This document shows positions 21,391-60,223 of a DNA stretch of 64,000 nucleotides, piece by piece. The stretch spans positions 19,530,263 to 19,594,262 of the forward strand of contig NC_035169.2 of the NCBI RefSeq assembly GCF_001659605.2. Reading direction: 5' to 3'. The translations under genes were made by a program, and so were the position numbers. The DNA comes from Manihot esculenta. Taxonomy: Eukaryota; Streptophyta; Magnoliopsida; Malpighiales; Euphorbiaceae. The stretch's first letter is position 1. Every line of letters starts with the position of its first letter. The notes beneath the pieces were generated by a model. That model saw only the letters and a program-made list of their open reading frames with translations. It ran no database searches and was not told the origin of the DNA.

Positions 21391-21520
21391 CACCTTCGGA
21401 AGCCGAAAGTCAAGTCCAGAGCCGAAACTCAACCACCTTCGGAAGCACCTTCGGCGGCCGAAAGTTTGCTCCAGAGCCGAAAGTCTAGCCTCCGAAAATA
21501 AGTTTAGGCAGCCGAAAGTC
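21391..21520 (+). repeat. 54-bp motif units in B 5' LTR
   Basis: Two units of 54 bp: TTCGGAAGCCGAAAGTC with CCAGAGCCGAAACTC, then TTCGGCGGCCGAAAGTTTG with CCAGAGCCGAAAGTC. Unit length and both sub-blocks match the chromovirus LTR array. The corresponding stretch of the 3' LTR is 38091-38245. Confidence 0.88.
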
Positions 21521-21819
21521 CCCCCTAATTGCCTCTTCCTTATTCAAGAAGCCAAATCTTGAAGATCACATGTTTTCCACTTCATGCCATGCACATTCAA
21601 AATTCAAAAGGAGGCTCCACCTTCCTCTTTAGTGCATGGGTGGCAAGAATCATGTGAAGAAGACTTCTTGAACACACCTTAGACAGCAATCAAAAGACCA
21701 AAAAGCCCTTCCTTGTCTTCACACATGCACATAGAAGGCACATATAGGACCAAGGGCACTTTGGGCAGCCTCTAAAAGATGCATGGACATCCAAGAAACC
21801 CTAGGCAGCCTCCCAAGAC

Positions 21820-21830
21820 CTATTTAAAGG
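21820..21830 (+). promoter_or_regulatory. TATA box of B 5' LTR
   Basis: CTATTTAAAGG, preserved in the 3' LTR (38542-38552) and, with one change, in the Athila solo LTR. Transcription would start about 30 nt downstream. Confidence 0.6.
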
Positions 21831-22830
21831 CCTTAAGAAGACAAGAAGTGGCAGACTTGAAGATTGGACATCACCTCCCATTCGGCCAAGCACCTTCGGC
21901 CGCCGCTCCTCCTTCTCCTCCACCACCGGTTCTTCCTCCTTTGTTCTTTCCTTCTATTTTCTGTTTTGGTTCAGCCAGGAGTAGCTGAAACTTTAATTCT
22001 AGTTGAAGTTTGGTTGAAACTAAGGTTGTTTTATGGATTGTGAGATCTGAACATAAAGTGTTTATCTTTGATTAGTTCAATATTCATGCAATTGTGTGTT
22101 TAAATCTAAGATTGCTTTGTTGTTTTGATCAAATCGGCCACTTGATTCTTGATTGCAAAGTTAATTGATTGTTAGTTGGGATATTTGTTAGTCCGTAATT
22201 GCTGGAAATATTCTGACCTAAGAACACTTGGTGTAAAAACTAAGGAATTGTGTGATCTAGCATCATCTTCATGCATTTGGAGTAGCTAGGATTGGATCTC
22301 TCTAATTCTTTATGCAATTGACAATTGTTTTGATGCCTATGGCCCAAGGACGTTCCTTGGCAATTTGTTAATTAGTAATTGATTAGAAGAAGTTCCCTAA
22401 TTGATTTAATCATAAGGAGAGACATGGTGGTGAGAAGCGTTTTCCATCCCCATAACTAATCTATTGAATGAATCAAGGGAACATAAGTTTCAATGATCAA
22501 TCCAAACAACCAAAGTGGATCCATATCTTCAACTAGACTTTTCTCATATTGATTTCCTCTTTTATTTTAATAACTTGCTGTTTTAATTGCTTTCAATAGT
22601 TGTTAGTCAAATCAATCTCAAAACCCCACTTTTTACTTTATTGCACTTTACTTTTGATCTCCTTGCTTTCAATTGTGCTTTCAGTTGATTCTAATTGATC
22701 TTGTTTGGGAAAAATAGATGAGTATTCAATTCTCTGTGGATTCGATCCTTTACCACTATTTGCAGTTGTAAGATTGTTGATAACCGTAGTGGTTATTTTT
22801 GACCGGCTTCGACAACCGCGAGTCAAAAAT

Positions 22831-22848
22831 TGGTGCCGTTGTCGGGGA
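22831..22848 (+). promoter_or_regulatory. Primer-binding site of element B
   Basis: TGGTGCCGTTGTCGGGGA, five bases after the LTR. It resembles the TGGCGCCGTTGCCGGGGA site of Athila/Calypso elements (tRNA-Asp type in the literature I recall). Confidence 0.8.
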
Positions 22849-22876
22849 GTTGATTTAACTTGTTTATTTTTCTTTC

Positions 22877-23834
22877 ATGACCAGATCTGAATACAGGGAC
22901 ACTCTGCCCTTTGATCCAGAAATTGAACGCACTCTCAAAAAGTTAGGAAAGCAAGCCTCCAACGCAGAACCTTCTGCCCAACATTCGGCCGCCGAAATTA
23001 CTCTTCATTCGACTGTCGAACCTTCTCTTCTCCAGCAACCGAATCTTACACAAATGGCAAAACCTAATGCACAAGCTACTGCCCCCAATGGACATGCTGT
23101 CCAGAACCAAATAATTCAAGAAAATCCAACAATAAGGCCACAGATGCCAAGGGAAAGAACCATGAGAGAACTAGCAACACCTGTAGGTGATCAAGCACCT
23201 CTTTGCATCACCTATCCACCTCTTACAGTTCCCTTTGAACTAAAGACAGGTTTGATTCATCTTCTCCCAAAATTCAAAGGTTTGTTCATCTATGAGACCT
23301 CAAGGTATCTCTAAAGATCATGTTAAATTAAGAGCTTTTCCCTTTTCATTAGATGACTTTGCTAAAGATTGGTTATTTTATTTGCCACCTGAATCTATAA
23401 CTTCTTGGAATGATATGGTCCAAACCTTTTTGAATAAATACTTTCCAACATCTAAATCAATTGGCATAATAAGAGAAATCACTAGCATAAGACAAAAATC
23501 GATTGAAGATTTATATGATTATTGGGAAAGGTTTGAAAGACTATGTACAGGTTGTCCGCAACATGATATGTCAGACATGTCTCTCATACAGTTCTTCTAT
23601 GGAGGATTACTCTCATCAGAAAGAAAATTCATAGATGTAGCTTGTGGTGGATCCATTGCAGACAAAACACCTAGGGAGATGCGAGAGTTGATCTCTACAC
23701 TTACAGCCTCATCTAGGCAATATGGAGAAGAAAATCAACTGCAGAGAGGAGTCCATGAGGTAAGCTCACCTACTATTTCTGAACTGACATCTGTTATGAA
23801 AGATTTTGCTATAGGACTGGTTCAACAGATGTAA
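22877..23834 (+). pseudogene. Element B gag, broken
   Basis: It starts at ATG 22877 (MTRSEYRDTLPFDPEIERTL) shortly after the PBS. The core LRAFPFSLDDFAKDWLFYLP is the Athila gag (retrotrans_gag) domain. Against C's gag about 50 nt are missing near 23285, which also shifts the frame, so the N-terminal part (22877-23314) and the core (23292-23834) are in different frames. The core ends at TAA 23832-23834; its frame then continues past this into the zinc knuckle. The N-terminal part holds two TTCGGCCGCCGAA-type 13-mers exactly 24 bp apart (22984-22996, 23008-23020), read as SAAE and STVE. Confidence 0.9.
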
Positions 23835-24152
23835 GCAATCCAGCCGCCTAGGCCATGTGGGATCTGTTTATATGTAGGACATCCAACCAATCAATGTCCT
23901 ACTCTGCAAGAAGACAACCAACAGGTTAATGCCATTGGAGGGTACAACAACCAGCCTAGACATGATCCATATTCAAACACATACAATCCAGGTTGGAGAG
24001 ACCACCCCAATTTCAGCTACGGAAGGGCCAACAATAATCAGAACCATCAAAACTATCAAAGGAATCACGCCCAACCAGCACCTCCAAATTTCATCCAGCA
24101 CCTTGAAAAGATGATGGAAACAATGGTAAATGCCATGCAAGGCATGCGATAG
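23835..24152 (+). pseudogene. Element B gag C-terminus with CCHC zinc knuckle
   Basis: In the same frame as the gag core, after the TAA, CGICLYVGHPTNQC (23856-23897) fits CX2CX4HX4C, a nucleic-acid-binding knuckle. An Asn/Gln-rich tail with YSNTYNPGW follows, shared with C's gag, and ends at TAG 24150-24152, probably a former CAG. Confidence 0.85.
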
Positions 24153-24176
24153 GACATAGGATAACTGACTGCATCC

Positions 24177-25121
24177 ATGAGCAAATCTGAATCACAAGGT
24201 AAACTCCCTTCTCAAACTGAAACTAATCCTAGACAAAATGTGAGTGCCATCACTTTGAGAAGTGAAAAAGAACTTCAAGATGCTAGTTATGAGCAAGAAA
24301 AGCAAGTTGCGCAAGAACCAATTGATTCAGAAGCCTCTCCAGCGCAATCTGAAACACCACCTGCGCAAAAGACTGATCCAAAGGTAAGTTTTCACATTCC
24401 ACCTCCTTTTCCAAAAAGATTTGAAAGAACACAAAAAGAGAAGGAAGAAAAGGAGATTCTTGAGACTTTCAGAAAAGTGGAAATCAACATACCACTGCTA
24501 GATGCTGTTAAGCAGATTCTGAGGTACGCAAAATTTCTAAAAGAATTGTGCACCAATAGAAGAAAGCTAGCTGCAAGAGAAAAAGTAAGTGTAGGTGAGG
24601 TTGTCACAGCTATTATTAAAAGAGAACTCCCTACTAAATGCAAAGACAAAGGTATGTTTGCTATCTCTTGCAAAATTGGGAATGTTGAAATTAAGAAAGC
24701 CATGTGTGATCTTGGTGCATCCATAAATGTTATGCCTCTTTCCATCTATAAATCTCTGAATGCATGTGCACTAAAAGACACAAGAGTTGTGATCCAATTA
24801 GCTGATAGATCTGTGGTATATCCCATAGGTGTCCTAGAAGATGTGTTAGTTCAAGTAGATAAACTTGTCTTCCCTGCAGATTTTTATGTGATTGATACTA
24901 AGGAAGATAGTTACAATGCTAGTTCTGACATCCTTCTTGGACGTCCTTTCTTGAGTACTGCTAGAACAAAGATTGATGTACATGATGGTACTTTGACCAT
25001 GGAATTTGAAGGGGAAGTCATTAAGTTTAATGTCTATGACGCCATGAAATATCCACATGATATGTCCCCAGTTTATGGTCTTGATATTGTTGACTGTTTA
25101 AGCCAGGAAATTTTTTTATGA
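24177..25121 (+). pseudogene. Element B protease region
   Basis: NVSAITLRSEKEL near 24240 marks the usual start of the Athila protease region. The aspartic protease core is CDLGASINVMPLSIY (near 24708-24750), with Leu after the catalytic Asp as in other Athila proteins, and LGRPFLSTAR further on. It ends at TGA 25119-25121 just after a run of seven T; one T fewer would join the frame to the following linker, so a slippage-type insertion is the likely cause. Confidence 0.88.
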
Positions 25122-25680
25122 AAATCAAGATGATATTCTTAATAGTGATTTCTGCAGAGGTACTGATCAGGTACAGATTGAGAGCCGGAACGAACTGAAA
25201 CTAAAGGAAATAGTTTGTAGCATCCAACAGATTGATGTTGTACAGATTGAAAACCTTCGGCCGCCGAATCCAGACCCCCTTTGGCCGCCGAACATGACTG
25301 CCTTCCAGACGCAGAATCCATCGCCACAACTTGCCCAGCACACTGAAAACTTTCGGCAGCCGAACTCTACTGACTTTCGGCCGCCGAACTCAGCAACCAT
25401 TCGGCAATCGAAGCTGAACTCCCTTCAGCCGCCGAATCTTTCCCCTCAGCCCCCAGCACAGACTGAAGCCATGATCCCTCGGCCTCCAAACTCGACTGAC
25501 TTTCGGCCGCCGAACTCAGAAGCCTTTCGGCTGCCGAACCATATTCCACAGACTCCAATGCAAGCAAGCTCTTCCAGTCCTCCTTTGCAATCAAGCCAGA
25601 AAGCACCAGAATCAGATCTGAAGCCTCTTCCAGATCATTTGAAATACATGTACCTAGGAGCTAACAAGACACTACCAGTA
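25122..25680 (+). pseudogene. Element B linker coding 24-bp inverted-repeat units (FRPPNS-type)
   Basis: This open stretch between protease and RT encodes a low-complexity peptide with repeated FRPPNSTD-like octamers. The DNA holds nine TTCGGCCGCCGAA or near copies starting at 25256, 25280, 25352, 25376, 25400, 25424, 25478, 25502 and 25526, spaced 24 bp or multiples, with one 54-bp step. The end (KYMYLGANKTLPVI) is the normal entry to the RT domain, and it is here that D inserted. No known domain; probably a flexible spacer. Confidence 0.85.
25256..25538 (+). repeat. 24-bp-period TTCGGCCGCCGAA array in coding sequence
   Basis: Nine 13-mers, with perfect copies at 25256, 25376 and 25502. Here the motif is read CGG-CCG-CCG (RPP), whereas in gag it is read TCG-GCC-GCC-GAA (SAAE). 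Conservation is therefore of the DNA word, not the peptide. Confidence 0.9.
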
Positions 25681-25685
25681 ATAGT
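25681..25685. repeat. Target-site duplication of element D (ATAGT), left copy
   Basis: ATAGT is repeated at 35337-35341 directly after D's 3' LTR. Confidence 0.97.
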
Positions 25686-26504
25686 TGTAATACCCGGCAT
25701 GTTCAGACATCGAAATTCCTACCGTCCGATGGAATCTAGGATGTCAAAGCATCCCTGAAGGGTAGAGTGAAGGTTTTCTAAAATGTTTTTACATGTTTTA
25801 AGTTTTTGTTTTAGAAAAGAAATGAGTTTGGAAGAGAAAAGGCTAAGGAAGTCTTTGCCACTTTCGGCCCCCGAAAGTTGAAGTTCGGCCGCCGAAAGTA
25901 CCCCATGTTCGGCCCCCTAAACGCTAATGTTCGGCCTCCGAAGGTGGTGAGGTGTTGCATGTAGCTTTAGCCACCAAATGTGAAGCGGTGGTTCTTTGTT
26001 AAAGGTGTTTTTGGCCGAGAAAGGAGGTGCTTAAGCTTTCCTTTGGGTCAGAGACATGTTCATGCTTCCCCTTAGTGACTTACCTAGTTTCTCATCAAAT
26101 CTTTCAAAGAAAAACAAGGTTAAAGTGAGTTTAAGATAGTTTTGAGAAGTTGTGGAGTTTAAGAACTTGTGAAGCTTGAATCTCCATCTCTTCAAGTTTG
26201 GAGTCACACCAGCCTTTGTTCTTCAAGAGGTAAGTGTGAATCCTTAGTTTTTATCATGTTTTACATAAGCTTGATGAAGGAGAAGGGGAGTTATGCATGT
26301 GTATGCATAAGTTGTGCATAGTAGGGTGCATAAATCGTTTATGCTATATGTATGCTTGATGTGTGTTGTTGGTTGGAGTTTTAATGTGGTTTAAGACTCC
26401 TATATGCATGATTAAGTGTTAGAGCATGTTTGAAGAGGTGGGATGCATGTTTGGAGGGTTAGTGTTTGGATGGCATGGTTGTGCACGAAGCTGAGTTCGG
26501 GATG

Positions 26505-26655
26505 AACTCAGGTTCGGCCGCCGAATGTGGGAGTTCGGCCGCCGAACCTCTTCTGAAGGCAGTTTTGGCTGCCTAAGGTTGCCCCCGAACATTTGGACTT
26601 TCGGATCTGTCATGCACATTCGGCCGCCGAAGGTGCCCCCGAAAGTGCCCTGTCC
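26505..26655 (+). repeat. TTCGGCCGCCGAA array in D 5' LTR
   Basis: Three perfect 13-mers (near 26513, 26536 and 26619) with GCCCCCGAA and TTTCGGATCTG blocks. This is a shortened version of the 54-bp array. The 3' LTR copy is at 33937-34087 with one change. Confidence 0.9.
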
Positions 26656-27015
26656 AGCTTTCCTTTGCATGTTTTCCATGGTTGTTCTAAGGTGTTTTAA
26701 GGGGTTTTTGGGGAGATGTTTAGAGATATGTTAGAGTATGTTTGGTCCCTCATTTAAGTCTATCTGTGTAGGCACAGACCAGAGGAACCAGAGAGTTCAG
26801 CAGTGAGTACCGCTTCAGGAGCCTGCAGAGTCAGTCAGAGTCAGTCAGAGGTGAGTGGAACTACACTTAATTCTTTTAATTACGAAATGTAATGTTTTTA
26901 GCATCTTTCATTCATCATGAGTATGCATAGGATGATTGCATTAGAAATCACGAATATGTTGCATTGCATAGTTAATTGTTGATGTGGGTGAATGCTGAAT
27001 GATCCAATAGTCCCA

Positions 27016-27265
27016 GACAGGAAGTCCAGGACCCCATTCTACGGCCTGGCAGGTATAGAGAGTTCAGGACCCCATTCTACGGCCTGACAGGTTTGTTTTT
27101 GTACAGGAAGTCCAGGACCCTATGCGATGGCCTGGCAGCTTTATTATTTATACAGGAAAAATCCAGGACCTCATCAATGGCCTGGAAATTTAAAATATGT
27201 GTGTATGTATGTATGGATGTATGTATGCATTACAGGAAGACCAGGACCCCAGTCGACGGCCTGGC
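27016..27265 (+). repeat. CCAGGACCCC...GGCCTGG array in D U5
   Basis: Five irregular units, each with CCAGGACC and GGCCTGG arms around a short centre (ATTCTAC, TATGCGAT and similar). They are potential RNA hairpins downstream of the transcription start. The same design, with other sequences, is seen in A, K, F, H-like and I LTRs. Confidence 0.75.
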
Positions 27266-27905
27266 ACGGATTAGATACTGGGACTATGTGGTGACAGGTT
27301 TACCCTAGATGTGAATTGTCTGTGATATGACGCATTCCATAAGATCATGTTTTAATGACAGGTTTTATTGTTCTACTCACTGGGCTATAGAGCTCATCCC
27401 TCTCCCTTATTCCCAGTTTTGCAGGTTTCAGTATACAGGTTGTACAAGGGCAAGTCAGAGGTGCATAAAAAAAAAAAATAAAAAAAAAATAAAGAGCTTG
27501 TAATAGTTAGAGTGGATATGTAATATTAAAGAGATGTATTAGTTTGTGTAAATAGTTAAAGTGTGCTTGACTTAGTTATTCTGTTTTATAAGTCTTTTGT
27601 ATACATGATCAAGTTATATAACTGTTTTACAAACAGGTGAAAAACCAGGCTTAACAGGTATGATTTAACCCATCTAGAGCAAGCTCTAGTCAGGGGTACA
27701 GAGTACAAAGTATAGAGATTGTGCATGCACAGGTTAAGCCATAGTTCAGAGGAAGAAAAGTTTTTATTTTCACAGAAAATATATGATCATGTATGAGTTT
27801 TTACAGGTACACAGAGAGTATAGCAGGCTTGCTACGGGTTCTAGCGGCCTTATCCCGACCTGAATCCTAGCGCCGGTGACGGTCCATTTCCGGGTCGTTA
27901 CAGAT

Positions 27906-27917
27906 TGGTATCAGAGC
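27906..27917 (+). promoter_or_regulatory. Primer-binding site of element D
   Basis: TGGTATCAGAGC, complementary to the 3' end of initiator tRNA-Met, three bases after the LTR. Confidence 0.93.
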
Positions 27918-28129
27918 CCTAGGTTCACATGATCGGACCTATAGAGAAAGTGTCGGGCTCATAGAGGATAGAATTGGTCAAGCACAATAGGAAAACATGT
28001 CCACTCGGATAGGATGTTAGTCCTGTCTTTAGATGTTAAGTTATGCCATGAATATGCATGTGTATTATTGACATGTGCTGTATATATGCTGATGTGCTAT
28101 ATTGTGTGTTTTGTTCTCAGAAAGTTAAG

Positions 28130-31100: not shown

Positions 31101-33046
31101 CACCAGTGTTAGCTCTGCCTGTTAGTAATACAGATTTCAAAGTGTTCTGTGATGCGTCTCGAGTGGGATTGGGTTGTGTTTTGATGCAGAGAGACAGGGT
31201 GATTGCTTATGCTTCTAGACAGTTGAAGAAGCACGAGTTGAATTACCCCACCCATGACCTAGAGATGGCAGCAGTTATCTTTGCACTCAAGATGTGGAGG
31301 CATTACCTCTACGGGGTTAAATGCGAGATCTTCACCGATCACAAGAGTTTACAGTACATCTTAAGTCAGAGAGAGCTGAATTTGCGGCAAAGAAGATGGG
31401 TCGAATTGCTCAGTGATTATGATTGTAAGATCCAGTATCATCCGGGTAAGGCGAATGTTGTCGCAGACGCCCTAAGCCGGAAGTCACTAGGCAGTTTATC
31501 CCATATAGCAGCAGAGCGGAGACCGGTTGTGATGGAGCTTTATAAGCTCTTTGCCGAGGGATTACAGCTAGAGTTGTCTGGTACAGGTGCGTTGATAGCA
31601 CAGATGAGAGTGACACCTATGTTTCTGGAGCAGATAGCTCAGAGACAGCACGAGGACCCTGAATTGATGAAAATTGCCAGAACTGTTCAGTCAGGCAACA
31701 ATGCAGAGTTTAGATTTGACAGCAAAGGGATCCTTCGCTATGGGAGTCGACTTTGTGTACCAGATAGGGGCAGTGTAAAGGAAGACATTATGAGGGAAGC
31801 TCATAATGCGAGGTATAGTGTTCACCCAGGAGCCACCAAGATGTATCAGGATCTGAAAAGGGTCTATTGGTGGCCATCCATGAAGAAAGAAGTGGCGCAA
31901 TTCGTGACAGCCTGTGAGGTTTGTCAGAGGGTGAAATTAGAGCATCAGAAACCAGCCGGAATGCTTAACCCATTACCGATTCCAGAGTGGAAATGGGAGA
32001 ACATAGCCATGGATTTTGTAGTGGGTTTACCAGTAGCGTCCAACAGGATAGGCTCGATATGGGTGATTGTGGACAGACTCACGAAATCTGCTCATTTTCT
32101 TCCAGTACGGAGTAACTATTCTGTGGATAAGCTGGCACAGGTCTATCTGGATGAGATAGTGAGATTACATGGAGTTCCAGTGTCTATAGTTTCAGACAGA
32201 GGACCTCAGTTTACCTCCCGTTTTTGGCGGAGTCTGCAAAGTGCGATGGGCACGAGATTGGATTTTAGTACTGCTTTCCACCCACAGACTGATGGACAGT
32301 CAGAAAGGACCATCCAGACCATAGAGGATATGCTTCGCCTATGTGTGTTAGACTTTGGCGGTTCTTGGAGGCAGCATCTACCTTTGGTGGAGTTTGCCTA
32401 CAATAACAGTCATCATGCTAGCATTGGGATGGCTCCTTATGAAGCTTTGTATGGGAGGAAGTGCAGATCCCCTGTTTGCTGGGAAGAGGTAGGAGAGAAG
32501 GCTCTTGCAGGGCCAGAGTTAGTAGACCTTACCAGTAGAATGGTGCCCATGATCAGAGAGAGAATCAGAACAGCTCAGAGTAGACAGAAAAGTTATGCAG
32601 ACGTTCTCAGAAAGCAGTTAGAGTTTCAAGAAGGTAATTGGGTATTGCTGAAAGTGTCTCCAATGAAAGGGGTGGTTCGTTTTGGGAAGAAAGGTAAATT
32701 GGCTCCACGGTACATTGGACCCTTTGAGGTGTTGCAGAGGATCGGAAATGTGTCGTATAAGCTGGATTTACCTGCTTCTATGGAGAGGATTCACCCGGTA
32801 TTTCATGTTTCTATGCTACGACAGTTTGTGTCAGATCCGAATCAGGTTCTGAGTGAGCCTGAGGTGGAGATTCATACGGATCTCACCTATATAGAGCAGC
32901 CAGTGCGGATTCTGGACACGCAGATCAGACAGCTAAGGAACAAGGAGATTCCGATGGTGAAAGTTCTATGGAACCACCATAATCTAGAAGAGTGCACATG
33001 GGAGACGCGGGAGTCTATGCTCCAGCAGTATCCATATCTGTTTTGA
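28130..33046 (+). CDS. gag-pol: Element D gag-pol polyprotein, uninterrupted
   Basis: One ORF of 1638 codons from ATG 28130 ([13 protein letters not shown]), the start shared with A, E and G; an in-frame ATG at 28058 lies upstream of a likely splice acceptor and is less likely. Order: Pro/Tyr-rich N terminus; gag core (about residues 180-330); CCHC knuckle [14 protein letters not shown] with Cys425; protease with Asp525 (MDPGASHSF, Pro replacing Ser/Thr of DSG/DTG); RT with FIDDIL, Asp861/Asp862; RNase H ([11 protein letters not shown]); integrase HHCC region and DD35E triad Asp1295, Asp1356, Glu1392; chromodomain-like end with [17 protein letters not shown] and W residues. It encodes capsid, protease, reverse transcription and integration functions for copying the element. 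No lesion seen, so it may be autonomous. Confidence 0.97.
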
Positions 33047-33116: not shown

Positions 33117-35336
33117 TGTAATACCCGGCATGTTCAGACATCGAAATTCCTACCGTCCGATGGAATCTAGGATGTCAAAGCATCCCTGAAGGGTAGAGTG
33201 AAGGTTTTCTAAAATGTTTTTACATGTTTTAAGTTTTTGTTTTAGAAAAGAAATGAGTTTGGAAGAGAAAAGGCTAAGGAAGTCTTTGCCACTTTCGGCC
33301 CCCGAAAGTTGAAGTTCGGCCGCCGAAAGTACCCCATGTTCGGCCCCCTAAACGCTAATGTTCGGCCTCCGAAGGTGGTGAGGTGTTGCATGTAGCTTTA
33401 GCCACCAAATGTGAAGCGGTGGTTCTTTGTTAAAGGTGTTTTTGGCCGAGAAAGGAGGTGCTTAAGCTTTCCTTTGGGTCAGAGACATGTTCATGCTTCC
33501 CCTTAGTGACTTACCTAGTTTCTCATCAAATCTTTCAAAGAAAAACAAGGTTAAAGTGAGTTTAAGATAGTTTTGAGAAGTTGTGGAGTTTAAGAACTTG
33601 TGAAGCTTGAATCTCCATCTCTTCAAGTTTGGAGTCACACCAGCCTTTGTTCTTCAAGAGGTAAGTGTGAATCCTTAGTTTTTATCATGTTTTACATAAG
33701 CTTGATGAAGGAGAAGGGGAGTTATGCATGTGTATGCATAAGTTGTGCATAGTAGGGTGCATAAATCGTTTATGCTATATGTATGCTTGATGTGTGTTGT
33801 TGGTTGGAGTTTTAATGTGGTTTAAGACTCCTATATGCATGATTAAGTGTTAGAGCATGTTTGAAGAGGTGGGATGCATGTTTGGAGGGTTAGTGTTTGG
33901 ATGGCATGGTTGTGCACGAAGCTGAGTTCGGGATGAACTCAGGTTCGGCCGCCGAATGTGGGAGTTCGGCCGCCGAACCTCTTCTGAAGGCAGTTTTGGC
34001 TGCCTAAGGTTGCCCCCGAACATTTGGACTTTCGGATCTGTCATGCACATTCGGCCGCCGAAGGTGCCCCTGAAAGTGCCCTGTCCAGCTTTCCTTTGCA
34101 TGTTTTCCATGGTTGTTCTAAGGTGTTTTAAGGGGTTTTTGGGGAGATGTTTAGAGATATGTTAGAGTATGTTTGGTCCCTCATTTAAGTCTATCTGTGT
34201 AGGCACAGACCAGAGGAACCAGAGAGTTCAGCAGTGAGTACCGCTTCAGGAGCCTGCAGAGTCAGTCAGAGTCAGTCAGAGGTGAGTGGAACTACACTTA
34301 ATTCTTTTAATTACGAAATGTAATGTTTTTAGCATCTTTCATTCATCATGAGTATGCATAGGATGATTGCATTAGAAATCACGAATATGTTGCATTGCAT
34401 AGTTAATTGTTGATGTGGGTGAATGCTGAATGATCCAATAGTCCCAGACAGGAAGTCCAGGACCCCATTCTACGGCCTGGCAGGTATAGAGAGTTCAGGA
34501 CCCCATTCTACGGCCTGACAGGTTTGTTTTTGTACAGGAAGTCCAGGACCCTATGCGATGGCCTGGCAGCTTTATTATTTATACAGGAAAAATCCAGGAC
34601 CTCATCAATGGCCTGGAAATTTAAAATATGTGTGTATGTATGTATGGATGTATGTATGCATTACAGGAAGACCAGGACCCCAGTCGACGGCCTGGCACGG
34701 ATTAGATACTGGGACTATGTGGTGACAGGTTTACCCTAGATGTGAATTGTCTGTGATATGACGCATTCCATAAGATCATGTTTTAATGACAGGTTTTATT
34801 GTTCTACTCACTGGGCTATAGAGCTCATCCCTCTCCCTTATTCCCAGTTTTGCAGGTTTCAGTGTACAGGTTGTACAAGGGCAAGTCAGAGGTGCATAAA
34901 AAAAAAATAAAAATAAAAAAAAATAAAGAGCTTGTAATAGTTAGAGTGGATATGTAATATTAAAGAGATGTATTAGTTTGTGTAAATAGTTAAAGTGTGC
35001 TTGACTTAGTTATTCTGTTTTATAAGTCTTTTGTATACATGATCAAGTTATATAACTGTTTTACAAACAGGTGAAAAACCAGGCTTAACAGGTATGATTT
35101 AACCCATCTAGAGCAAGCTCTAGTCAGGGGTACAGAGTACAAAGTATAGAGATTGTGCATGCACAGGTTAAGCCATAGTTCAGAGGAAGAAAAGTTTTTA
35201 TTTTCACAGAAAATATATGATCATGTATGAGTTTTTACAGGTACACAGAGAGTATAGCAGGCTTGCTACGGGTTCTGGCGGCCTTATGCCGACCTGAATC
35301 CTAGCGCCGGTGACGGTCCATTTCCGGGTCGTTACA
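33117..35336 (+). mobile_element. 3' LTR of element D
   Basis: 2220 bp. Compared with the 5' LTR, I see C to T near 34072, A to G near 34864, A to G near 35278, C to G near 35289, and a different A-run near 34900. It is followed by ATAGT (35337-35341). Confidence 0.97.
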
Positions 35337-35341
35337 ATAGT

Positions 35342-37921: not shown

Positions 37922-39547
37922 TGATAGAGCATATTTTAGTCCATATTATCATGATCTTATTGATGTTTATTTACACTTTTCCTACCTAATTTTGTGGTTT
38001 TAATCATGTTTTGCAGATATTAGGTGTAAAGAAACAATCAAGAGAAAATGCTCTCGAAAATGCCAAAAAGTGCTAAATCTGGAAAAACCACCTTCGGAAG
38101 CCGAAAGTCAAGTCCAGAGCCGAAACTCAACCACCTTCAGAAGCACCTTCGGAAGCACCTTCAGAAGCACCTTCGGCGGCCGAAAGTTTGCTCCAGTGCC
38201 GAAAGTCCAGCCTCCGAAAATAAGTTTAGGCAGCCGAAAGTCCCCCCTAATTGCCTCTTCCTTATTCAAGAAGCCAAATCTTGAAGATCACATGTTTCCC
38301 ACTTCATGCCATGCACATTCAAAATTCAAAAGGAGGCTCCACCTTCCTCTTTAGTGCATGGGTGGCAAGAATCATGTGAAGAAGACTTCTTGAACACACC
38401 TTGGACAGCAATCAAAAGACCAAAAAGCCCTTCCTTGTCTTCACACATGCACATAGAAGGCACATATGGGACCAAGGGCACTTTGGGCAGCCTCTAAAAG
38501 ATGCATGGACATCCAAGAAACCCTAGACAGCCTCCCAAGATCTATTTAAAGGCTTTAAGAAGACAAGAAGTGGCAGACTTGAAGATTGGACATCACCTCC
38601 CATTCGGCCAAGCACCTTCGGCCGCCGCTCCTCCTTCTCCTCCACCACCGGTTCTTCCTCCTTTGTTCTTTCCTTCTATTTTCTGTTTTGGTTCAGCCAT
38701 GAGTGGCTGAAACCTTAATTCTAGTTGAAGTTTGGTTGAAACTAAGGTTGTTTTATGGATTGTGAGATCTGAATATAAAGTGTTTATCTTTGATTAGTTC
38801 AATATTCATGCAATTGTGTGCTTAAATCTAAGATTGCTTTGTTGTTTTGATCAAATTGGCCACTTGATTCTTGATTGCAAAGTTAATTGATTGTTAGTTG
38901 GGATATTTGTTAGTCCGTAATTGCTGAAAATATTCTGACCTAAGAACACTTGGTGTAAAAACTAAGGAATTGTGTGATCTAGCATCATCTTCATGCGTTT
39001 GGAGTAGCTGGGATTGGATCTCTCTAATTCTTTATGCAATTGACAATTGTTTTGATGCCTATGGCCTAAGGACGTTCCTTGGCAATTTGTTAATTAGTAA
39101 TTCATTAGAGGACGTTCCCTAATTGATTTAATCATAAGGAGAGACATGGTGGTGAGAAGCGTTTTCCATCCCCATAACTAATCTATTGAATGAATCAAGG
39201 GAACATAAGTTTCAATGATCAATCCAAACAACCAAAGTGGATCCTTATCTTCAACTAGACTTTTCTCATATTGATTTCCTCTTTTATTTTAATTACTTGC
39301 TGTTTTAATTGCTTTCAATAGTTGTTAGTCAAATCAATCTCAAAACCCCACTTTTTACTTTATTGCACTTTACTTTTGATCTCCTTGCTTTCAATTGTGC
39401 TTTCAGTTGATTCTAATTGATCTTGTTTGGAAAGAATAGATGAGTATTCAATTCTCTGTGGATTCGATCCTTTACCACTATCTGCAGTTGTAAGATTGTT
39501 GATAACCGTAGATGTTATTTTTTACCGGCTTCGACAACCGCGAGTCA
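37922..39547 (+). mobile_element. 3' LTR of element B
   Basis: 1626 bp, TGATAGAGC to CGCGAGTCA, followed by CGTAT. The motif array 38091-38245 has the TTCGGAAGC sub-units in different number and order from the 5' LTR, so the array changes copy number after insertion. Confidence 0.95.
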
Positions 39548-41153: not shown

Positions 41154-41300
41154 GGTCCTTGGTTCCTCGGGTCCAAACCTACACAAGTAGACTCAAATGA
41201 GGGACCAAACAACTAGAACATAACTCTAAAAACATCCCCCAAAAAACCCTAGAACATTATGAAACAACCATAGAAAAACATGCAAAAGAGGGCTGGACAG

Positions 41301-41550
41301 GGCACTTTCGGCGGCAGGTTCGGCGGCCGAAAGTCCCTCCAGAGCCGAAAGTCAGGCAGGTTCAGCGGCACCTTCGGCGGCCGAAACTCCCAGACAGAGG
41401 CAAAACTCATGCATGTTCGGCGGCACTTTCGGCGGCTGAAACTCCCAGACAGAGACGAAAGTCTCCTTTCGGGGGAAAGCTTCGGCAGCCGAAGGCTGCT
41501 TCCACAAGCATGTTCGGCGGCCGAAAGTTCCTTCGGCTGCTGAACCTGGT
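41301..41550 (-). repeat. 54-bp TTCGGCGGCCGAA array, E 3' LTR
   Basis: Three consecutive intervals of exactly 54 bp between 13-mers (with the variants TTCGGCGGCTGAA and TTCGGCAGCCGAA), then denser copies. The cleanest example of the period. The same array in the 5' LTR is at 51268-51510. Confidence 0.93.
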
Positions 41551-46463: not shown

Positions 46464-48782
46464 TGTAACGCCCCAAAAATCGGACCGCTACCGGCGCTAG
46501 GATCCGGGTCGACTTAAGGCCGCCGGGACCCGTAGCAAGCCTGACATGTAACCTGTAAACCTGTTTAATCCCATACATGATCAACAATCATACATAAAAT
46601 TTTAAACTTTTCCTCATACGTACTATCATCAACTAACTCAACCTGTGTATACCCTGAACATATACATAACATAGTCTCTCTGTGGGATCTCATCATGCCT
46701 TAAAGGCAAAACAGCCTGTGTTGAGTTAGTTTACATAAACATCATAACATAAGATCATGTATAGACAAAAGGGATTAACAATACATTATGGTCAAGCACA
46801 ACTCTATCCTCAATAACCTCATTACATAACATTATGAATATTTTTACATTTCATCAATTGTCATGTCCACAAACTAACTATTACATACATAAGACATACT
46901 TCAAAACTCTGGCTAACCTTCTGATCTACCCTGTACCTGCACATCTGGGGTTAGGGGAGAGGGGTGAGCTACAAAGCCCAGTGAGCAGAATAGTATAAAA
47001 CAATATATTAAAATTTTTATGCTTTCATGGAATGCAACACATCACAACAATTCACATCTCGGATGGTATTGTCACCTATAGTCCTCTACATAGGTCCAAC
47101 TGTGCCGGGACGTAGAATGGGTCAACCGGTCTTTCCCTTATCATAACATATCATATGGACCAACTGTGCCAGGGACGTAGAATGGGTACAACCTGGACTT
47201 TCTCTTACATCGTGCCAGGGACGTAGAATGGGTACAACCTGGACTTCCATACCATAACATGTCGTAACATCAAACATATCATATGAGGACTAAAGGATCA
47301 TCCAATAACCAATCCACATCAACATTAACATCATAAATGCAATGCAACAAATTCGTGAATACTAATGCAAGCAACCTATTATATCTCATGGCATTCATGA
47401 TGCATGGATCATGCTCAAAATTCATATTTCATTTATTTAAAACTTAAGGTTTATTCCACTCACCTCTGGCTAGCTCTGACAAACTCTGTAGCAGCTGGCT
47501 CACTGCTGGGGTCCTCGGTTCCTCGGGTCCGAACCTACACAGGTGGACTCCAATGAGGGACCAAACATACATAAACATAACTCTAATATACTCCCCAAGA
47601 ACCCCCTAAAACATCATGAAACAATCACATAACAACATGCAAGAAATGGCTGGACAGGGCACTTTCGGCGGCAGGTTCGGCGGCCGAAAGTCCCTCCAGA
47701 GCCGAAAGTCAGGCAGGTTCGGCGGCACCTTCGGCGGCCGAAACTCCCAGACAGAGACGAAACTCATGCATGTTCGGCGGCACCTTCGGCGGCCGAAAGT
47801 CCCAGACAGAGACGAAAGTCTCCCTTCGGGGGCAACTTCGGCAGCCGAAAGGCCTGCCTCACCAGCCATGTTCGGCGGCCGAAAGTGCCTTCGGCTGCCG
47901 AACCTGGTTTCTGCCGAAGGGCAGAAACTTGGCTCCCAAATGCATTTTCGCCTCCAAACTCACCAATCATGCATATACCTCAGTTAAAACATGCATACAA
48001 GTTCCTAGGGGCCTCAAAACATCAAATACCCCAACTACAACACTTCAAACACACAAAAACAACATACATTGTCCAAGACATCAAGGTTAACCCATAACTC
48101 CACATATAACCTAACATGCATTTCTACCCATCGATCTAGCATAAAACTTATTGAAAACACATAAAGAGCTTAAGATCGGCTCTTACCTCTTGAAGATCGA
48201 GAGGGAGACGACCTAAACTTGGAGATCCAAGAAGATGAGCTCCTGAGTTCCCAAAGCTCCAAAACTTGTTTCAAAAGTTCAAAACCTTTAATGCAAGCTT
48301 AAAACTCAAGAAAAATGGTGGGGATTTGGAGGAAGAACACTAGGTTTGCAAAGGGAAAGTCAGAAACTTGCTGTGGCCGAAAATGGGAGAAAGCTCGCCC
48401 ATTTCGGCTAAGTGCCCCTTATATAGTGGCTGGCCAGGCCACGTTCGGGGGCCGAATGTGCCTCCGCATCCATGCAAATGTTCGGCGGCCGAACTTGACT
48501 TTCGGCGGCCGAACCTGAACTTCCCTAACTCATGCTTTCGGGGGCCTACCGTGCCTCCAAAACGCATGCATGTTCGGCGGCCGAACTTGACTTTCGGCGG
48601 CCGAACCTGGGTTTTCCTCCAATGCTATTTTCATGTAAAAACTCATTTTCTTTTATACTTAAAACATTAAAATACATGAAAACATTTTATAAAACATGTT
48701 CTTACCCTTCTAGAGATTTCCGACGTTCGAGATCCCACCGGACGGTAGGGATTCCGATACCGGAGTCTAGCCGGGTATTACA
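46464..48782 (-). mobile_element. Solo LTR F (chromovirus) inside E gag
   Basis: TGTAACGCCCC to GGGTATTACA, 2319 bp, flanked by CTGGC (46459-46463 and 48783-48787). TATA CTATATAAG at 48418-48426 (minus), donor-like site at 48186, array at 47660-47910, and U5 units of GTGCCAGGGACGTAGAATGG at 47100-47245. It belongs to the same broad family as E's LTR but is a distinct subfamily. Confidence 0.96.
47660..47910 (-). repeat. TTCGGCGGCCGAA array in solo LTR F
   Basis: Three 13-mers at 54-bp steps (TTCGGCGGCCGAAAGTCCC, then two with AAACTCCCAGAC or AAAGTCCCAGAC), followed by TTCGGCAGCCGAA, TTCGGCGGCCGAA and TTCGGCTGCCGAA. Confidence 0.92.
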
Positions 48783-50125: not shown

Positions 50126-52408
50126 TGTAACGACCCGAAATTTGGACCGCTACCGGCGCTAGGATCCAGGTCGGCTTAAGGCCGCCGGGACCCGTAGCAA
50201 GCCTAACATGCATCCTGTGAACCTGTTTAATCCCATACATGATCAAGAATATTCATAAAAATTAAAACTTTTCTTTCCTACATACACCAAACTCAACCTG
50301 TGCATGCACTGAACATAATCATAATCATAACATTGATCCCTCTGTGGGATCTCATCAATGCCCCAAAGGGCAATACAACATATGTTGAGTTGGTTTACAT
50401 AAATATCATAAAACGTCTGATATCATGTATTAAAAGGGATAACAACATACTATGGTCAAGCACACTTCTAACATCCTTAAACATCATTACATTACATATC
50501 TATATTGTACTTTTCCATTACATCATTCTACAAATTCATCATGTCCACATTCTATCTATTACATGCACAAGACTTCATTACTCTTGCTGACCTCCTGGTC
50601 TACCCTGTACCTGCAAGCCTGGGGATTAAGGGAGAGGGGTGAGCTACAAGAGCCCAGTGAGCAGAATAATAAAACATTTAAAACATATGATAACATGAAA
50701 TGCATCACATCACAACTAATTACATCAAGGATGAATTTGTCACCAATAGTCCCCTACATGGTCCAACTGTGCCAGGGGCGTAGAATGGGCCTCGCTGGTC
50801 TTTCTCTTACATAACATAACATAACATGGTCCAACTATGCCAGGGGCGTAGAATGGGCCTCACTGGTCTTCCGTACCGTATCATCATCATCATCACATAT
50901 GGGGACTAAAGGATCATTCAACATTCATCCACATCATCAACATATTATGCAATGCAACATATTCGTGAGTCTAATGCAAACACCCTGTTATATCTCATGG
51001 CATTCATGATGCGTGAATCATGCTAAAACTGATTTATTTATTTAAAAGCATAAGAGTTATTCCACTCACCTCTAGCAGAAGCTCTACTGACTCAGAAGCA
51101 GCTGAACTCACTGCTGGGGTCCTTGGTTCCTCGGGTCCGAACCTACACAGGTGGACTCAAATGAGGGACCAAACAACTAGAACATAACTCTAAAAACATC
51201 CCCGAAAAAACCCCTAGAACATTATGAAACAACCATAGAAAAACATGCAAAAGAGGGCTGGACAGGGCACTTTCGGCGGCAGGTTCGGCGGCCGAAAGTC
51301 CCTCCAGAGCCGAAAGTCAGGCAGGTTCGGCGGCACCTTCGGCGGCCGAAACTCCCAGACAGAGGCAAAACTCATGCATGTTCGGCGGCACATTCGACGG
51401 CCGAAACTCCCAGACAGAGATGAAAGTCTCCTTTCGGGGGAAAGATTCGGCAGCCAAAGGCTGCTTCCACAAGCATGTTCGGCGGCCGAAAGTTCCTTCG
51501 GCTGCCGAACCTGGTTTCTCCCTTAGTGGCAGAAACTCAGCTCTTCTATGCACATTTGCCTCCAAAACTTTCCAATCATGCATAAACCTATTCTACAACA
51601 CACATACACAAGCATACAAGCTCCTAAGGGCTTCAAACTATCTAAAACCCCATCTACAACACATCAAACATGCATTTGCAAGCCACATTGTTCAAAAACA
51701 CAACATAAAATCATAAACCTAACCATAAGCTAAACATGCATTCTACCCCAAAGGTCTTCATAAAACTTACTTAAAACATGGAATGAGTTAAAGATCGGCC
51801 CTTACCTCTTGAAGATCGAGAGAGGGACGACCAAAACTTAGAGATGGGAGATTTTCAACTTCCTTGGGTCTCCAAGCTCAAAACTTGCTCAAAACTTGAA
51901 AATCTACAAAACAAGATGAAAACTTGTGAAAATCGTGAAAGATTTGGAGGAAGAACTCAAAGATTGGTGAGGGACGGTGCAGAGCTCACCTTGGCCAAAA
52001 ATGGGGAGAAAAGCTCGCCCGTTTTCGGCTAAAGGACCCTTTTATAGTGGCTGGCCAGGCCACGTTCGGGGGCTGAACGTGCCTCCGCATGCATGCCATG
52101 TTCGGCGGCCGAACTTGAGGTTCGGCGGCCGAACCTGGACTTCCCTCACTTATGCCTTCAGGGGCCTAAGGCACACCCGAAATGCCTGCATGTTCGGCGG
52201 CAGAACTTGAGGTTCGGCGGCCGAACCTGGGTTTTCCTCCAAGGTTTTTTTTTTTTAAAAAAAAAACTCATTTTCTTTTTTACTTAAAAGCATCAAATAC
52301 ACTAAAACATTTTATGAAAACATGGTTTTACCCTTCTAGAGGTCTCCGACATCCGAGATTCCACCGGACGGTAGGAATTCCGATACCGGAGTCTAGCCGG
52401 GTATTACA
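50126..52408 (-). mobile_element. 5' LTR of element E
   Basis: 2283 bp, TGTAACGACCC to GGGTATTACA. Highly similar to the 3' LTR apart from the 128-bp duplication and the 20-bp motif copy. TATA at 52039-52047; promoter-proximal motif copies at 52097-52140 and 52187-52230. Confidence 0.95.
51268..51510 (-). repeat. 54-bp TTCGGCGGCCGAA array, E 5' LTR
   Basis: Same units as at 41301-41550, with a few base changes (for example TTCGACGGCCGAA). Confidence 0.92.
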
Positions 52409-56888: not shown

Positions 56889-57126
56889 TGTAACGACCCG
56901 GAATTCGGACTGCTACCGGCGCTAGGATCCAGATCGGCATAAGGCCGCCGGGACCCGTAGCAAGCCTAACATACATCCTGTAAACCTGTTCAATCCCATA
57001 CATGATCAACAATTACATAAAAAGTTTTAAACTTTTCTTTTCATTCATTCATCAAACTCAACCTGTGCATGCGCTATTCATATACATAATCATCAACCCC
57101 ACACTGGAGTCCTCATCAATTGCTCC
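56889..57126 (-). mobile_element. H: chromovirus LTR, U5 end
   Basis: TGTAACGACCCGG onward matches the first 238 bp of E's LTR family. It is interrupted at 57127 by another LTR end, so H was the target of insertion I. The rest is not in the window. Confidence 0.88.
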
Positions 57127-57953
57127 TGTAACGACCCTAAAATGGACCGTCACCGGCGCTAGGATTCAGGTCGGCTTAAGGCCGCCAGAACCCGTAGCAA
57201 GCCTGCTATACTCTCTGTGTACCTGTAAACCTCATACATGATCATACATTTTCTGTGAAAATAAAACTCTTTTCTGAACCAAGGCTTAACCTGTGCATGC
57301 ACTGTCTCTGTACTCTGTACTCATGTACTCTGTACTCTGTCTCTCTGACTAGAGCTTGCTCTAGATGGGTTAACTCATATCTGTTAAGCCTGGTTTTCAC
57401 ATACAGGAAAACATATATACATATATAGATCATGTACAAAACATACATCACTAGGTCAAGCAACAACTATTACATCTCTTTAATATTACATGTCCACTCT
57501 AAGCTATTACAGATCTCTTTACTTTTCTTGTACTCTGCTGGACTGTCCCTGTACACTGTACACTGAACCTGCAAAACTGGGGTTAAGGGAGTGGGATGAG
57601 CTCTATAGCCCAGTGAGTAGAACAGAAAAACATCTCAGTAAAATATGATCTCATGAAATGCACCATATCACAGACAAGCCACATCAAGAGTAAACCTGTC
57701 ACCACATAGTCCCAGTAACTCTGTGCCAGGGCGTAGAATCGAGCACCTGGTCTTCCTGTCATATATGTATATGTGTATATAACACCTCTGTACTTACCAT
57801 TGCCAGGGCGTAGTCAAAGGCTCCTGGACTTTACTATATACCTGCCAGGGCGTAGTCAAAGGCTCCTGGACTTCGCTATACCTGCCAGGGCGTAGTCAAA
57901 GGCTCCTGGACTTCCTGTCTGAGACTATTGGATCATTCAACATTCACTCACAT
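57127..57953 (-). mobile_element. I: chromovirus LTR (D family), U5 part
   Basis: TGTAACGACCCTAAAATGG onward is closely similar to the reverse of D's LTR end. It carries TGCCAGGGCGTAGTCAAAGG/CTCCTGGACTT units (57723-57920), three of them near-identical. Cut at 57954 by G's LTR. Confidence 0.9.
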
Positions 57954-60223
57954 TGTAATACCCGGCGAGACCCCGGTATCGGAATTCCTACGTTCCGGCG
58001 GATTTTCCGTTGGAAGTCGGGATTCGAGGATGTCGGAGCTTGCCCTAAGGGTATAAGAAAGGTTTTTAAAGATGTTTTTTTTAAGTGTTTTTATCATGTT
58101 TGCATGTTTTGAGTTAAGAAAATTGAGTTTTGAAATGAAAAGGCCAAGGGGACAAAAGCCAGGTTCGGCCGCCGAAGGTGAAGTTCGGCCGCCGAAAGTT
58201 GCATGGTTTCGCATGCACGTTAGGCCGCCGAAGGAAGAGTCGGTTGGTCACTACAAAAGCCCCTTTGCCCGAGACTTGAGTGGTAAACACTCTGTTTTTG
58301 GGTCAAAGGTAGGTTCAAGCTCTCCTTGGTGTGATTTCTCATGTTTTCCTCAAATCTTGCATGTTTTAACTTGATTTGAGCTTTGTTTTAGAGATTTGAG
58401 CAAAAGGAAGCAAAGTTGAGCACTTGGAGATTTTGATTGAGTTTTTCCCCATCTCCAAGCTTGGATCATCAATCCTCTAGTTCTTCAAGAGGTAAGCATG
58501 GATCCTCACCTCCCTTTATGTTTAAAGTATGTTTTAAGAGTTTTTAGAGAGTTTTATGGCATGTTTTGGGGTATAAGCATGAGTTTGAGCATATGTTGAT
58601 CATATGCGTTTTGTTGTTGTTTTTGGGGCTTGAACTAGTTTTTAGGCCTCTATATGCATGAGATATGTTATATGTTAGTTCAGAAGTGTTGGTATGCATG
58701 TTATGGGTGTTTGATAGGATGTGGAGGCTGAGAGCATGAGTTGTGCTCGGATTCTGCCTTTCTGGAGAATCCAAGTTCGGCCGCCGAAGTAAGGTTCGGC
58801 CGCCGAACCCCTTGTGGAGGCAGTTTCGGCTGCCAAACCTTGCCCCCGAAAGCTAGGCTTTTGGGTGAGAAAGGGGCTTTCGGCCGCCGAAAGAGGGAGT
58901 TCGGCCGCCGAAAGTGCATGAGTTTCGTCTCTGGACGAGACTTTCGGCCGCCGAAGGTGCCGCCGAACATGCATGAGTTTCGTCTCTGGAGAGGGGTTTC
59001 GGCCGCCGAAAGTGCCGCCGAAAGTGCCCAGTCCAGCCTTCTTTTGCCCATTTTTCCATGCATGCCTATGATGTTTTAGAGGGGTTTTGGGGAGATAGTA
59101 GGAGTTATGTTTAAGTAAGTTTGGTCCTCATTTGAGTCCACCTGTGTAGGTACGGACCCAAGAGACCAAAGAGGCCCACAGAGTTAGAGTTACAGAGACT
59201 GCTCAGCCGTTGACAGAGGTGAGTGGAACAGAACGTTATTTTAAAAGTTAAGAACTGTTTTAGCATGATTCATGCATCATTAATGCCATGTTTATGTAGG
59301 ATGCTTTGCATTAGTATTCACCAAGTTGATGCATTGCATTATTACTTGTATATGTGGATTGGACCGAGGCGATCTCAATAGCCCATAAGTCTGTCATTAT
59401 TGTATGTCCTGTGTGAGCTCCTTTGGGGCCGGGCATTTACCTTGGATGAGTCCTGTGAGAGCCCTTATAGGGTCGGGCACCATGAGTAGTTAGTGAAAGA
59501 CCTGTGTGAGCTTCTTTGGGGGCCGGGCACTGACAGAGGGAGTTTTGGGATCATGTCCAATCCGAGATGTGAAATGTTTGTGCCGTGATGCATCATATGA
59601 TAGCATGTTTTAAATGTGATTTTTTTATAGATTCCGCTCACTGGGCTTTAGCAGCTCATCCCTCTCCCTAACCCCATTTTTCAGGGCCTCAGAGAAGAGA
59701 AAGAGAAAGAGATAGCAAGGGTAAAAGGCATATGTAATAGTATAGAATAGTGGACATGAGAATGATGTACAGTACAGAGTTTATGTAATGTATAGAAATG
59801 ATGTAATAGCAAGTTATGTATTGAGTTATAGAATTGTGCTTGGCCCTAGTGTATGTTTATCCCTTTGCACATGATCATTTTCTGATTGAGATAATGTTGC
59901 TATGATGTGCTAGGCTTGGTGCATGGTAGTCTTTCTATCTCTGTAGTTACTGTATGGTACCATAGCAGGTATCACTCTTCGAGTGCATACAGACAGAGCA
60001 TGCATAGTCCAGGCTTAGTTGATGAGAAAAGTTTCAAGAAAAGAAAAGATAGTCAAGCAAAGAAAAAAAAAAGAAGAGGAAGTAACAGTTTTAAGCTTAA
60101 GTATGATCATGTATGGGATTTATCAGGTACACAGAGTTGACAGTAGGCTTACTACGGGTCCCGGCGGCCTTAAGCCGATCTGGATCCTAGTGCCGGTGAT
60201 GGTCCGGTAAGCGGGCTGTTACA
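57954..60223 (+). mobile_element. 5' LTR of element G
   Basis: TGTAATACCCGGCG to GGGCTGTTACA, 2270 bp. TATA-like CTACAAAAG near 58251-58259, just downstream of two TTCGGCCGCCGAA copies (58164, 58186). Donor-like AAGAG|GTAAGC at 58491/58492. U5 units of GTGTGAGCTCCTTTGGGGCCGG near 59410-59530. Confidence 0.95.
58770..59035 (+). repeat. TTCGGCCGCCGAA array in G LTR
   Basis: At least six perfect or near-perfect 13-mers, with CGTCTCTGGACGAGACTTTCGG blocks and GCCGCCGAACATGCATGAG between. Mirrors 19601-19860. Confidence 0.9.

Follow-up and report, generated by a model that had tools for sequence, protein, structure and literature searches.

What brings one tandem array of short palindromes into the long terminal repeats (LTRs) of two retrotransposon lineages whose LTRs are otherwise dissimilar? 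The question is posed by a 64,000-nucleotide stretch of the cassava (Manihot esculenta) genome (contig NC_035169.2, positions 19,530,263 to 19,594,262; hereafter the window), the plant DNA of which is rich in nested LTR retrotransposons. A preliminary description had claimed that an inverted-repeat unit of about 54 bp, accompanied by a second shared block, is arrayed in LTRs of both chromoviruses and Athila elements, that the rest of these LTRs is dissimilar, and that exchange between lineages or capture of one host sequence by both, rather than chance, is responsible. The presence of the same array in both lineages is confirmed by a tandem-repeat finder (TRF), by counts of the 13-mer on which the unit is built and by alignments, and the shared array reflects homology, not chance. 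Exchange between the lineages is well supported by the sequence comparisons given below, and we consider it moderately probable that a palindrome array forming a CpG island, native to chromoviruses and made of putative protein-binding sites, was acquired once and inverted by one Athila family.

In a Pfam scan of ten open reading frames (ORFs), the chromovirus here called P (25686-35336, + strand, target-site duplication (TSD) ATAGT) showed protease, reverse transcriptase (RT), RNaseH and then integrase domains, which is the Ty3/gypsy order and not that of Ty1/copia, where integrase precedes RT; its C-terminal end carries a weak match to the chromodomain (PF00385; E 5.6e-4, 20.2 bits, below the curated cut-off of 25.1). 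Chromovirus P is nested inside the element here called Athila B (21212-39547, + strand, TSD CGTAT), the 5' and 3' LTRs of which are 96% identical by self-comparison and which carries RT and RNaseH domains in the same scan. The Athila and chromovirus RTs are 42% identical over 347 residues. Among the 120 matches listed of 7963 for the Athila RT, the most identical is a Manihot esculenta protein (84% over 88% of the query) and none is named Athila, a name that we take to be that of this lineage. The LTRs of Athila B and the arrays of both lineages are located as follows.

21212..22825, + strand: Athila B 5' LTR (LTR-pair identity 96%, identical 5-bp flanks CGTAT)
37922..39547, + strand: Athila B 3' LTR (LTR-pair identity, flanks)
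21376..21520, + strand: array in the Athila B 5' LTR, two 55-bp units and a diverged terminal unit, sense, some 300-445 bp upstream of the TATA-like box (TRF, alignment, Smith-Waterman, census)
38074..38242, + strand: array in the Athila B 3' LTR, same block as in the 5' LTR with lengths changed in 12-bp steps (TRF, alignment)
10793..10937, - strand: array in the Athila LTR 9495-11101, an LTR without TSD (ACTTT / GGGCA) (alignment, Smith-Waterman)
6217..6445, + strand: array in chromovirus LTR A (5071-7216, element on -), antisense (TRF, self-comparison, alignment, census)
8282..8510, + strand: array in chromovirus LTR A2 (7217-9301, -) (TRF, alignment, census)
11102..11347, + strand: array in c11, a partial chromovirus LTR (11102-12151, -) that adjoins the Athila LTR 9495-11101 directly (alignment)
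19602..19855, + strand: array in chromovirus solo LTR H (18401-20675, -, TSD GGCTA) (TRF, alignment)
41299..41545, + strand: array in chromovirus LTR E (40035-42427, -) (TRF, alignment)
47656..47903, + strand: array in chromovirus solo LTR F (46464-48782, -, TSD CTGGC) (TRF, alignment)
51264..51510, + strand: array in chromovirus LTR G (50126-52408, -) (TRF, alignment)
58776..59029, - strand: array in chromovirus LTR K (57954-60223, +) (TRF, alignment)
26513..26650, - strand: short array of one unit and the terminal unit in the P 5' LTR (25686-27902, +) (self-comparison, alignment)
33944..34081, - strand: short array like that of the P 5' LTR in the P 3' LTR (33117-35336, +) (self-comparison, alignment)

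As arrays of 54-55 bp, TRF reports A 6222-6409, A2 8287-8480, c11 11105-11253, H 19604-19727, E 41307-41454, F 47659-47851, G 51272-51419 and K 58904-59027 among chromovirus LTRs, and 21376-21482 (B 5' LTR) and 10828-10935 (LTR 9495-11101) in Athila; for the Athila B 3' LTR (38091-38245) it lists only a 12-bp row at 38132-38174, and alignment shows the block to be present. The copies originally named as array-bearing all stand, but that list was incomplete: H, A2, c11 and P also carry the block, and the motif occurs outside arrays as well. The array site is spanned by ten chromovirus LTR copies from about eight insertions (A, A2, c11, H, E, G, F, K and both LTRs of P), and every one of them carries the array, as do three of the four Athila LTRs with a readable 5' part. 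LTR G is 96% identical to LTR E by self-comparison; the two are probably the LTRs of one element, and solo LTR F sits inside it. A chromovirus LTR fragment at 57126-57762 covers a part of the LTR outside the array site, and an Athila piece near 55 kb comprises only the 3' part of an LTR and is thus uninformative on the array. Between the two LTRs of Athila B, the 12-bp steps (CACCTTCGGAAG-like) differ (21376-21403 versus 38132-38174), which indicates repeat turnover at or after insertion.

The array unit measures about 55 bp, is built on TTCGGC-N-GCCGAA and takes the form CACTTTCGGCGGCA(CC/GG)TTCGGCGGCCGAAAGTC...CCAGAGCCGAAAGTC; census sites inside arrays are spaced 52-55 bp apart, mostly 54-55, and the period of about 54 bp given earlier is to be read as this narrow range. 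Units were extracted from nine chromovirus LTRs (23 units, the P 3' LTR being left out) and from Athila (6 units), and those lacking a CCAGAG-like block, as in H and K, were set aside. Athila arrays consist of two units and a diverged terminal unit, TTAGGC(A/G)GCC; a like terminal unit closes the chromovirus arrays (TTAGGCGGCC in A and A2, TTAGGCAGCC in P), starting with TTCGGC or TTTGGC in c11, E, F, G, H and K, and four Athila/chromovirus alignments extend across units and into it. Across the window, the 13-mer with at most two mismatches gives 206 strand-matches against 0.28 expected (the largest of 100 shuffles gave 3), and the second shared block is borne out by 33 matches to CCAGAGCCGAAAGTC with at most three mismatches, against 1.53 expected. 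Compared by Smith-Waterman alignment, three Athila and eight chromovirus arrays (A2 and the P 3' LTR left out) score 52-133 when set in one orientation and 20-35 when set in the opposite one, and the maxima of 100 shuffles each are 21-37; hence the units align better than random sequence, which settles a doubt voiced in the preliminary description. With the palindromic parts masked, the spacers alone match at 63% over 26 columns versus 27% when permuted, the largest of 2000 permutations being 37% (from five of the six Athila units, the one interrupted by an indel being excluded). Sensitive blastn of two Athila against nine chromovirus LTRs confined all matches to Athila LTR positions 154-314, that is, to the array, with nothing at E<1e-3 outside it, in agreement with the claim that the rest of these LTRs is dissimilar.

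The preliminary description missed that, relative to transcription, the array is sense in the Athila U3 and antisense in chromovirus LTRs: it reads + in Athila on the + strand and in the - strand chromoviruses, and - in P and K, which lie on the + strand. In Athila it precedes a TATA-like box by about 300-450 bp; in those six chromovirus LTRs that share a CTATA(A/T)A(A)GG box it follows the box by about 520-765 bp, this box being our choice among candidate matches. All six (A, A2, c11, E, F and G) have a second cluster of 13-mers about 18-180 bp upstream of the same box, and clusters occupy comparable positions in the other chromovirus LTRs. The cluster of LTR F, with its CpG observed/expected (o/e) ratio, is the following.

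48444..48605, + strand: five 13-mers of LTR F clustered near the promoter, some 18-180 bp upstream of the CTATATAAGG box; CpG o/e 1.10

The inverted orientation of the block is not what simple co-packaging with template switching from one sense RNA to another would yield; capture from an inserted fragment or an antisense RNA, or repair, could explain it.

A one-strand census of TTCGGCNGCCGAA with at most two mismatches found 113 sites, of which 91 belong to chromovirus LTRs, 12 to Athila LTRs and 10 to the Athila internal region; on our element map of the window, none lies outside these elements. The ten chromovirus LTRs hold 11, 11, 11, 10, 10, 8, 8, 8, 7 and 7 copies, and each array-bearing Athila LTR holds 4. 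Searched for CGG-N(0-7)-CCG with at least two extra symmetric bases, the window contains 76 sites, and the centre is 3 bases long in every one of them; 20 windows with shuffled bases contain 2-7 such sites. The palindrome arms are nearly invariant and the centre varies freely. Of 678 cells of arm pairs, 622 are unchanged, 51 are changed on one side, 4 are doubly changed and unpaired, and 1 is compensated, in a census that tolerates only two mismatches; the excess of one-sided over compensated changes argues that the sequence is kept rather than the pairing. The internal copies lie in two places.

22984..23020, + strand: pair of 13-mers, spaced by 24 bp, close to the beginning of Athila gag, translated as HSAAE and HSTVE
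25256..25538, + strand: group of eight 13-mers in the Athila linker between protease and RT, mostly spaced by 24 bp and translated mostly as F-R-P-P-N and variants

Because the gag and linker copies use different codon phases, a protein-level reason alone is insufficient for them. An origin of these copies as pieces of the 55-bp array was considered and gained little support: among the matches listed, those between the copies and the array are short (best E about 1e-4) and mostly comprise the 13-18 bp motif itself. Athila also has the 13-mer, with two mismatches, below its TATA-like box. A protein search for relatives of the Athila linker returned 45 candidates, none at E<=0.001. Helical phasing of the sites was considered and dropped, the spacings being mixed (18-24, 30-37, 43, 52-55 and 72-79).

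The CpG o/e ratio, taken as a plain ratio in F, H and Athila B, ranges from 1.02 to 1.39 over six blocks, namely the clusters and arrays of F and H together with the array and linker of Athila B; five stretches elsewhere give 0.31-0.49. In seven cross-family chromovirus pairs, with CpG and non-CpG sites counted apart, motif sites are 0.87-0.98 identical versus 0.60-0.84 at other LTR sites; for A and A2 the values are 0.94-0.98 and 0.78-0.83. Among the near-identical pairs H/K, P 5'/P 3' and Athila B 5'/B 3', motif sites are 1.00 identical and other sites 0.92-1.00.

The origin of the array was addressed with a sister Athila LTR, likewise missed in the preliminary description, that lacks it.

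About 16237..17608, - strand: AthC, sister Athila LTR, ends read by eye, no array between alignable flanks

AthC matches Athila B at 114 of 161 positions in the left flank, 74 of 116 in the right flank (partly simple sequence) and 55 of 139 in the array columns, and the census found no motif in it; having other sequence at the array position, it provides a contrast of presence and absence, not a clean empty site. Slightly downstream of the position of the Athila B palindrome array, AthC has an array of TTTTGAA/TTCAAAA heptamers (17221-17292). In an unrooted tree of 28 units (one cut unit dropped), the five Athila units cluster together, as they do in 83% of the 200 bootstrap replicates (support 81/89). 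The absence from AthC and the unit tree favour a single acquisition by one Athila family, and transfer from chromovirus to Athila is the likely direction in this small sample from one window. Of the two causes proposed at the outset, exchange fits better than parallel host capture, given the array in every chromovirus copy, its absence from AthC and the tree. The suspicion that Athila copies are chromovirus fragments inserted in a single progenitor was partly right, the data fitting one acquisition inherited by one Athila family.

Elsewhere in the genome, the ORF over the F array has 29 database protein matches, the five named ones being from Manihot esculenta chromosomes 10, 14, 6, 16 and 1 as read from their MANES loci. 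All 29, mostly on short contigs, match a chromovirus array best, each with a match at least 30 nt past an array into the LTR; as the query included LTR flank, this shows array plus LTR at many places and cannot show that the array is absent elsewhere. Within the window, the Athila LTR 9495-11101 ends exactly at the start of the c11 array and lacks a TSD, a junction that would fit Athila insertion at the edge of a chromovirus array followed by LTR recombination. The surrounding segment 9302-12151, in which this LTR joins the chromovirus A2 internal region to the c11 array edge, is likely a product of ectopic LTR recombination.

An explanation covering direction, capture mechanism, protein binding and function would run as follows. 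The array of CGG-CCG palindromes (TTCGGC-N-GCCGAA), forming a CpG island, would be native to Del/Tekay-like chromovirus LTRs in cassava, and the ancestor of one Athila family may have taken up a multi-unit piece once, reversed, into its LTR U3. A change in the U3 of the 3' LTR reaches both LTRs in the next retrotransposition cycle; reverse transcription would thus have copied the block to both LTRs, and the family would have spread afterwards. The palindromes would most likely serve as closely packed DNA sites to which a dimeric host protein binds, aiding LTR transcription, protecting the CpG-rich block from silencing, or both, a role also suggested for the similar-looking boxes of Sireviruses. 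A factor of the ERF GCC-box type, or another known transcription factor, was considered as the putative binding protein, and none is put forward. A broader proposal, which we regard as doubtful, is that CGG-N-CCG islands are a common control module of plant LTR retrotransposons, exchangeable between unrelated elements in either orientation, that a single class of palindrome-binding host factor is needed by Sireviruses, Del chromoviruses and Athila alike, and that the module even seeds copies in coding regions.

Several observations weigh against parts of this explanation. LTRs E and G show no excess conservation of the motif (0.94-0.96 at motif sites, 0.94-0.98 elsewhere), and between Athila B and the LTR 9495-11101 the pattern is reversed (0.76-0.85 versus 0.86-0.92). 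For the B 5' LTR against that LTR, 29 of 38 CpG positions at motif sites agree versus 62 of 70 elsewhere, and 51 of 66 other positions versus 2784 of 3038. Between these two Athila copies the array thus diverges faster than the LTR and gives no sign of constraint. The chromovirus identities themselves may be inflated by repeat homogenisation and alignment, the motif sites having been chosen by similarity. Three of nine chromovirus LTRs (H, K and P) lack the shared TATA box, and A, c11, E and F have additional TATA matches that were set aside. In the unit tree, the Athila units stand beside later chromovirus units (c11 unit 3; E, F and G units 2 and 3; H and K unit 2) with weak support (69/91).

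It is quite conceivable that Athila carries the block as a functionless passenger picked up by chance, and only one of the two Athila families judged in the window has it. However, a single passive capture does not account for the ten 13-mers of the Athila gag and linker regions, nor for the recurrence with two mismatches below the TATA-like box, and fast turnover is also reported, in the available parts of that literature, for the 5' CpG islands of Del elements and the palindrome regions of Sireviruses. A role as folded RNA (in packaging, in translation control or as a source of small RNA) instead of DNA sites is unlikely. Sense RNAs of all nine chromovirus arrays tested folded far better than shuffles (z -2.9 to -6.5), their antisense strands did so too (z -2.9 to -6.9), and maize Sirevirus palindromes are described in the accessible text as attracting small RNAs (PMC10760457, PMC5311732). 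Athila sense RNAs, in contrast, fold no better than shuffles (z -0.3, -1.0 and -0.8), among Athila strands only the antisense folds well (z -3.9, -4.5 and -1.9), and the arm changes are almost all one-sided. As the shared function, a conserved RNA stem finds no support on the Athila sense strand, although the antisense folding leaves it some room.

Independent capture by both lineages from a third source, such as a host satellite, a gene or the terminal part of some DNA transposon, would account for the opposite orientations with no direct transfer, and a CGG palindrome of maize is reported, in the text available, from both Copia and Helitron elements (PMC10760457). This is nevertheless distinctly unlikely: the census is confined to these elements within the window, the Athila units form one group, and the 29 protein matches all fit the chromovirus array with its LTR, although the flank in that query means that copies elsewhere could be missed. 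Transfer from Athila to chromovirus, for which the unrooted tree and the sample of one window leave room, is highly improbable, since the array and the second cluster occur throughout the chromovirus LTRs and AthC lacks the array. Sirevirus families that are otherwise little alike do have nearly the same CGG-CCG palindromes in common (PMC2829016), but chance, convergence or independent amplification of a similar GC-rich palindrome has a practically negligible likelihood here and is ruled out by the alignment scores relative to shuffles and by the masked spacers, next to the shared period and terminal unit.

Other features of these elements were seen in passing. In Athila B, the reading frame is broken between the protease ORF and the linker, and only about 1 kb separates the end of the RT-RNaseH ORF from the 3' LTR (36866-37922), with no ORF of at least 200 aa listed in the gap; the element is possibly non-autonomous and without integrase. 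Chromovirus LTR E contains an exact 128-bp tandem duplication at 40898-41153 (2.0 copies, 100%), and further tandem arrays with 40-48 bp units and CCAGG/CCTGG-like cores lie at 7741-7911 (A2), 27065-27185 and 34496-34616 (P) and 57801-57914 (beside K).

In the literature searched, where most subscription papers fall outside, no title or abstract describes the cassava array or such a block shared between lineages; the exact 13-mer has no match there, and only one paper (PMC2829016) links CGG-CCG palindromes, gypsy and LTR. A 26-mer of the unit has no matches in IMG/VR and GTDB, as expected for plant sequence. Gypsy elements make up 39.5% of a cassava genome in a report the available text of which mentions neither Athila nor Tekay (PMC10673656), and a weak insertion preference for palindromes that includes Athila is described in the accessible part of another (PMC6911290). 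Among systems with related features, centromeric chromovirus subfamilies have recombinant LTRs (PMC4079200, available text) and are alike in that LTR parts are swapped between retroelement families, but there long segments are exchanged within one clade, whereas the cassava exchange would involve a short inverted block and lineages with 42% RT identity. In VANDAL DNA transposons, arrays of VANC-target motifs have been shown to be bound by an anti-silencing protein (Hosaka et al., 2017; PMC5735166, available text). These motifs, too, are short, lie in the non-coding DNA of plant transposons and have multiplied there as tandem repeats, but the VANC protein is transposon-encoded and its motif is unrelated to the cassava 13-mer.

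Del chromoviruses have up to two CpG islands per LTR, one of them variable, and none in the eudicot group of five species without cassava (Cruz et al., 2014; PMC4029996, available text). The cassava chromoviruses resemble them in LTR length and in the LTR end, the K and P LTRs starting with TGTAATACCC, one letter off the Del U3 end TGTAACACCC; the main text of that paper, as available, contains neither 'tandem' nor 'palindrom'. The closest likeness is to the Sireviruses of Ty1/copia, where CGG-CCG-core palindromes occur in 12 of 13 elements, in at least 8 copies, upstream of TATA and bordering CpG islands, and are called Sirevirus-specific against other Ty1/copia elements (Bousios et al., 2010; PMC2829016, available text); small RNAs, fast evolution and the same palindrome in Helitrons are also described (PMC10760457, PMC5311732, available text). 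Sirevirus boxes and the cassava motif share a many-copy dyad-symmetric CGG...CCG motif upstream of TATA, CpG-rich islands and extra internal copies; arm lengths and centres vary by Sirevirus family, and Osr9, Barbara and Usier of Table 3 are closest by eye (PMC2829016, available text). Unlike these boxes, the cassava motif lies in Ty3/gypsy elements, with many copies inside a 55-bp tandem unit, in an array that is homologous between two lineages and inverted, and its internal copies are in gag and the protease-RT linker, not near an envelope gene. A palindrome described as a Sirevirus feature is thus now found in two Ty3/gypsy lineages, where the array is a marker of exchange between retrotransposon lineages and such shared blocks can mislead LTR-based clustering of families. 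If unrelated elements keep, borrow and re-orient one module, a host factor or silencing pathway probably reads it. The block itself is most suitably classed with the palindromic CpG-island boxes of Sireviruses, as a Ty3/gypsy variant of them.

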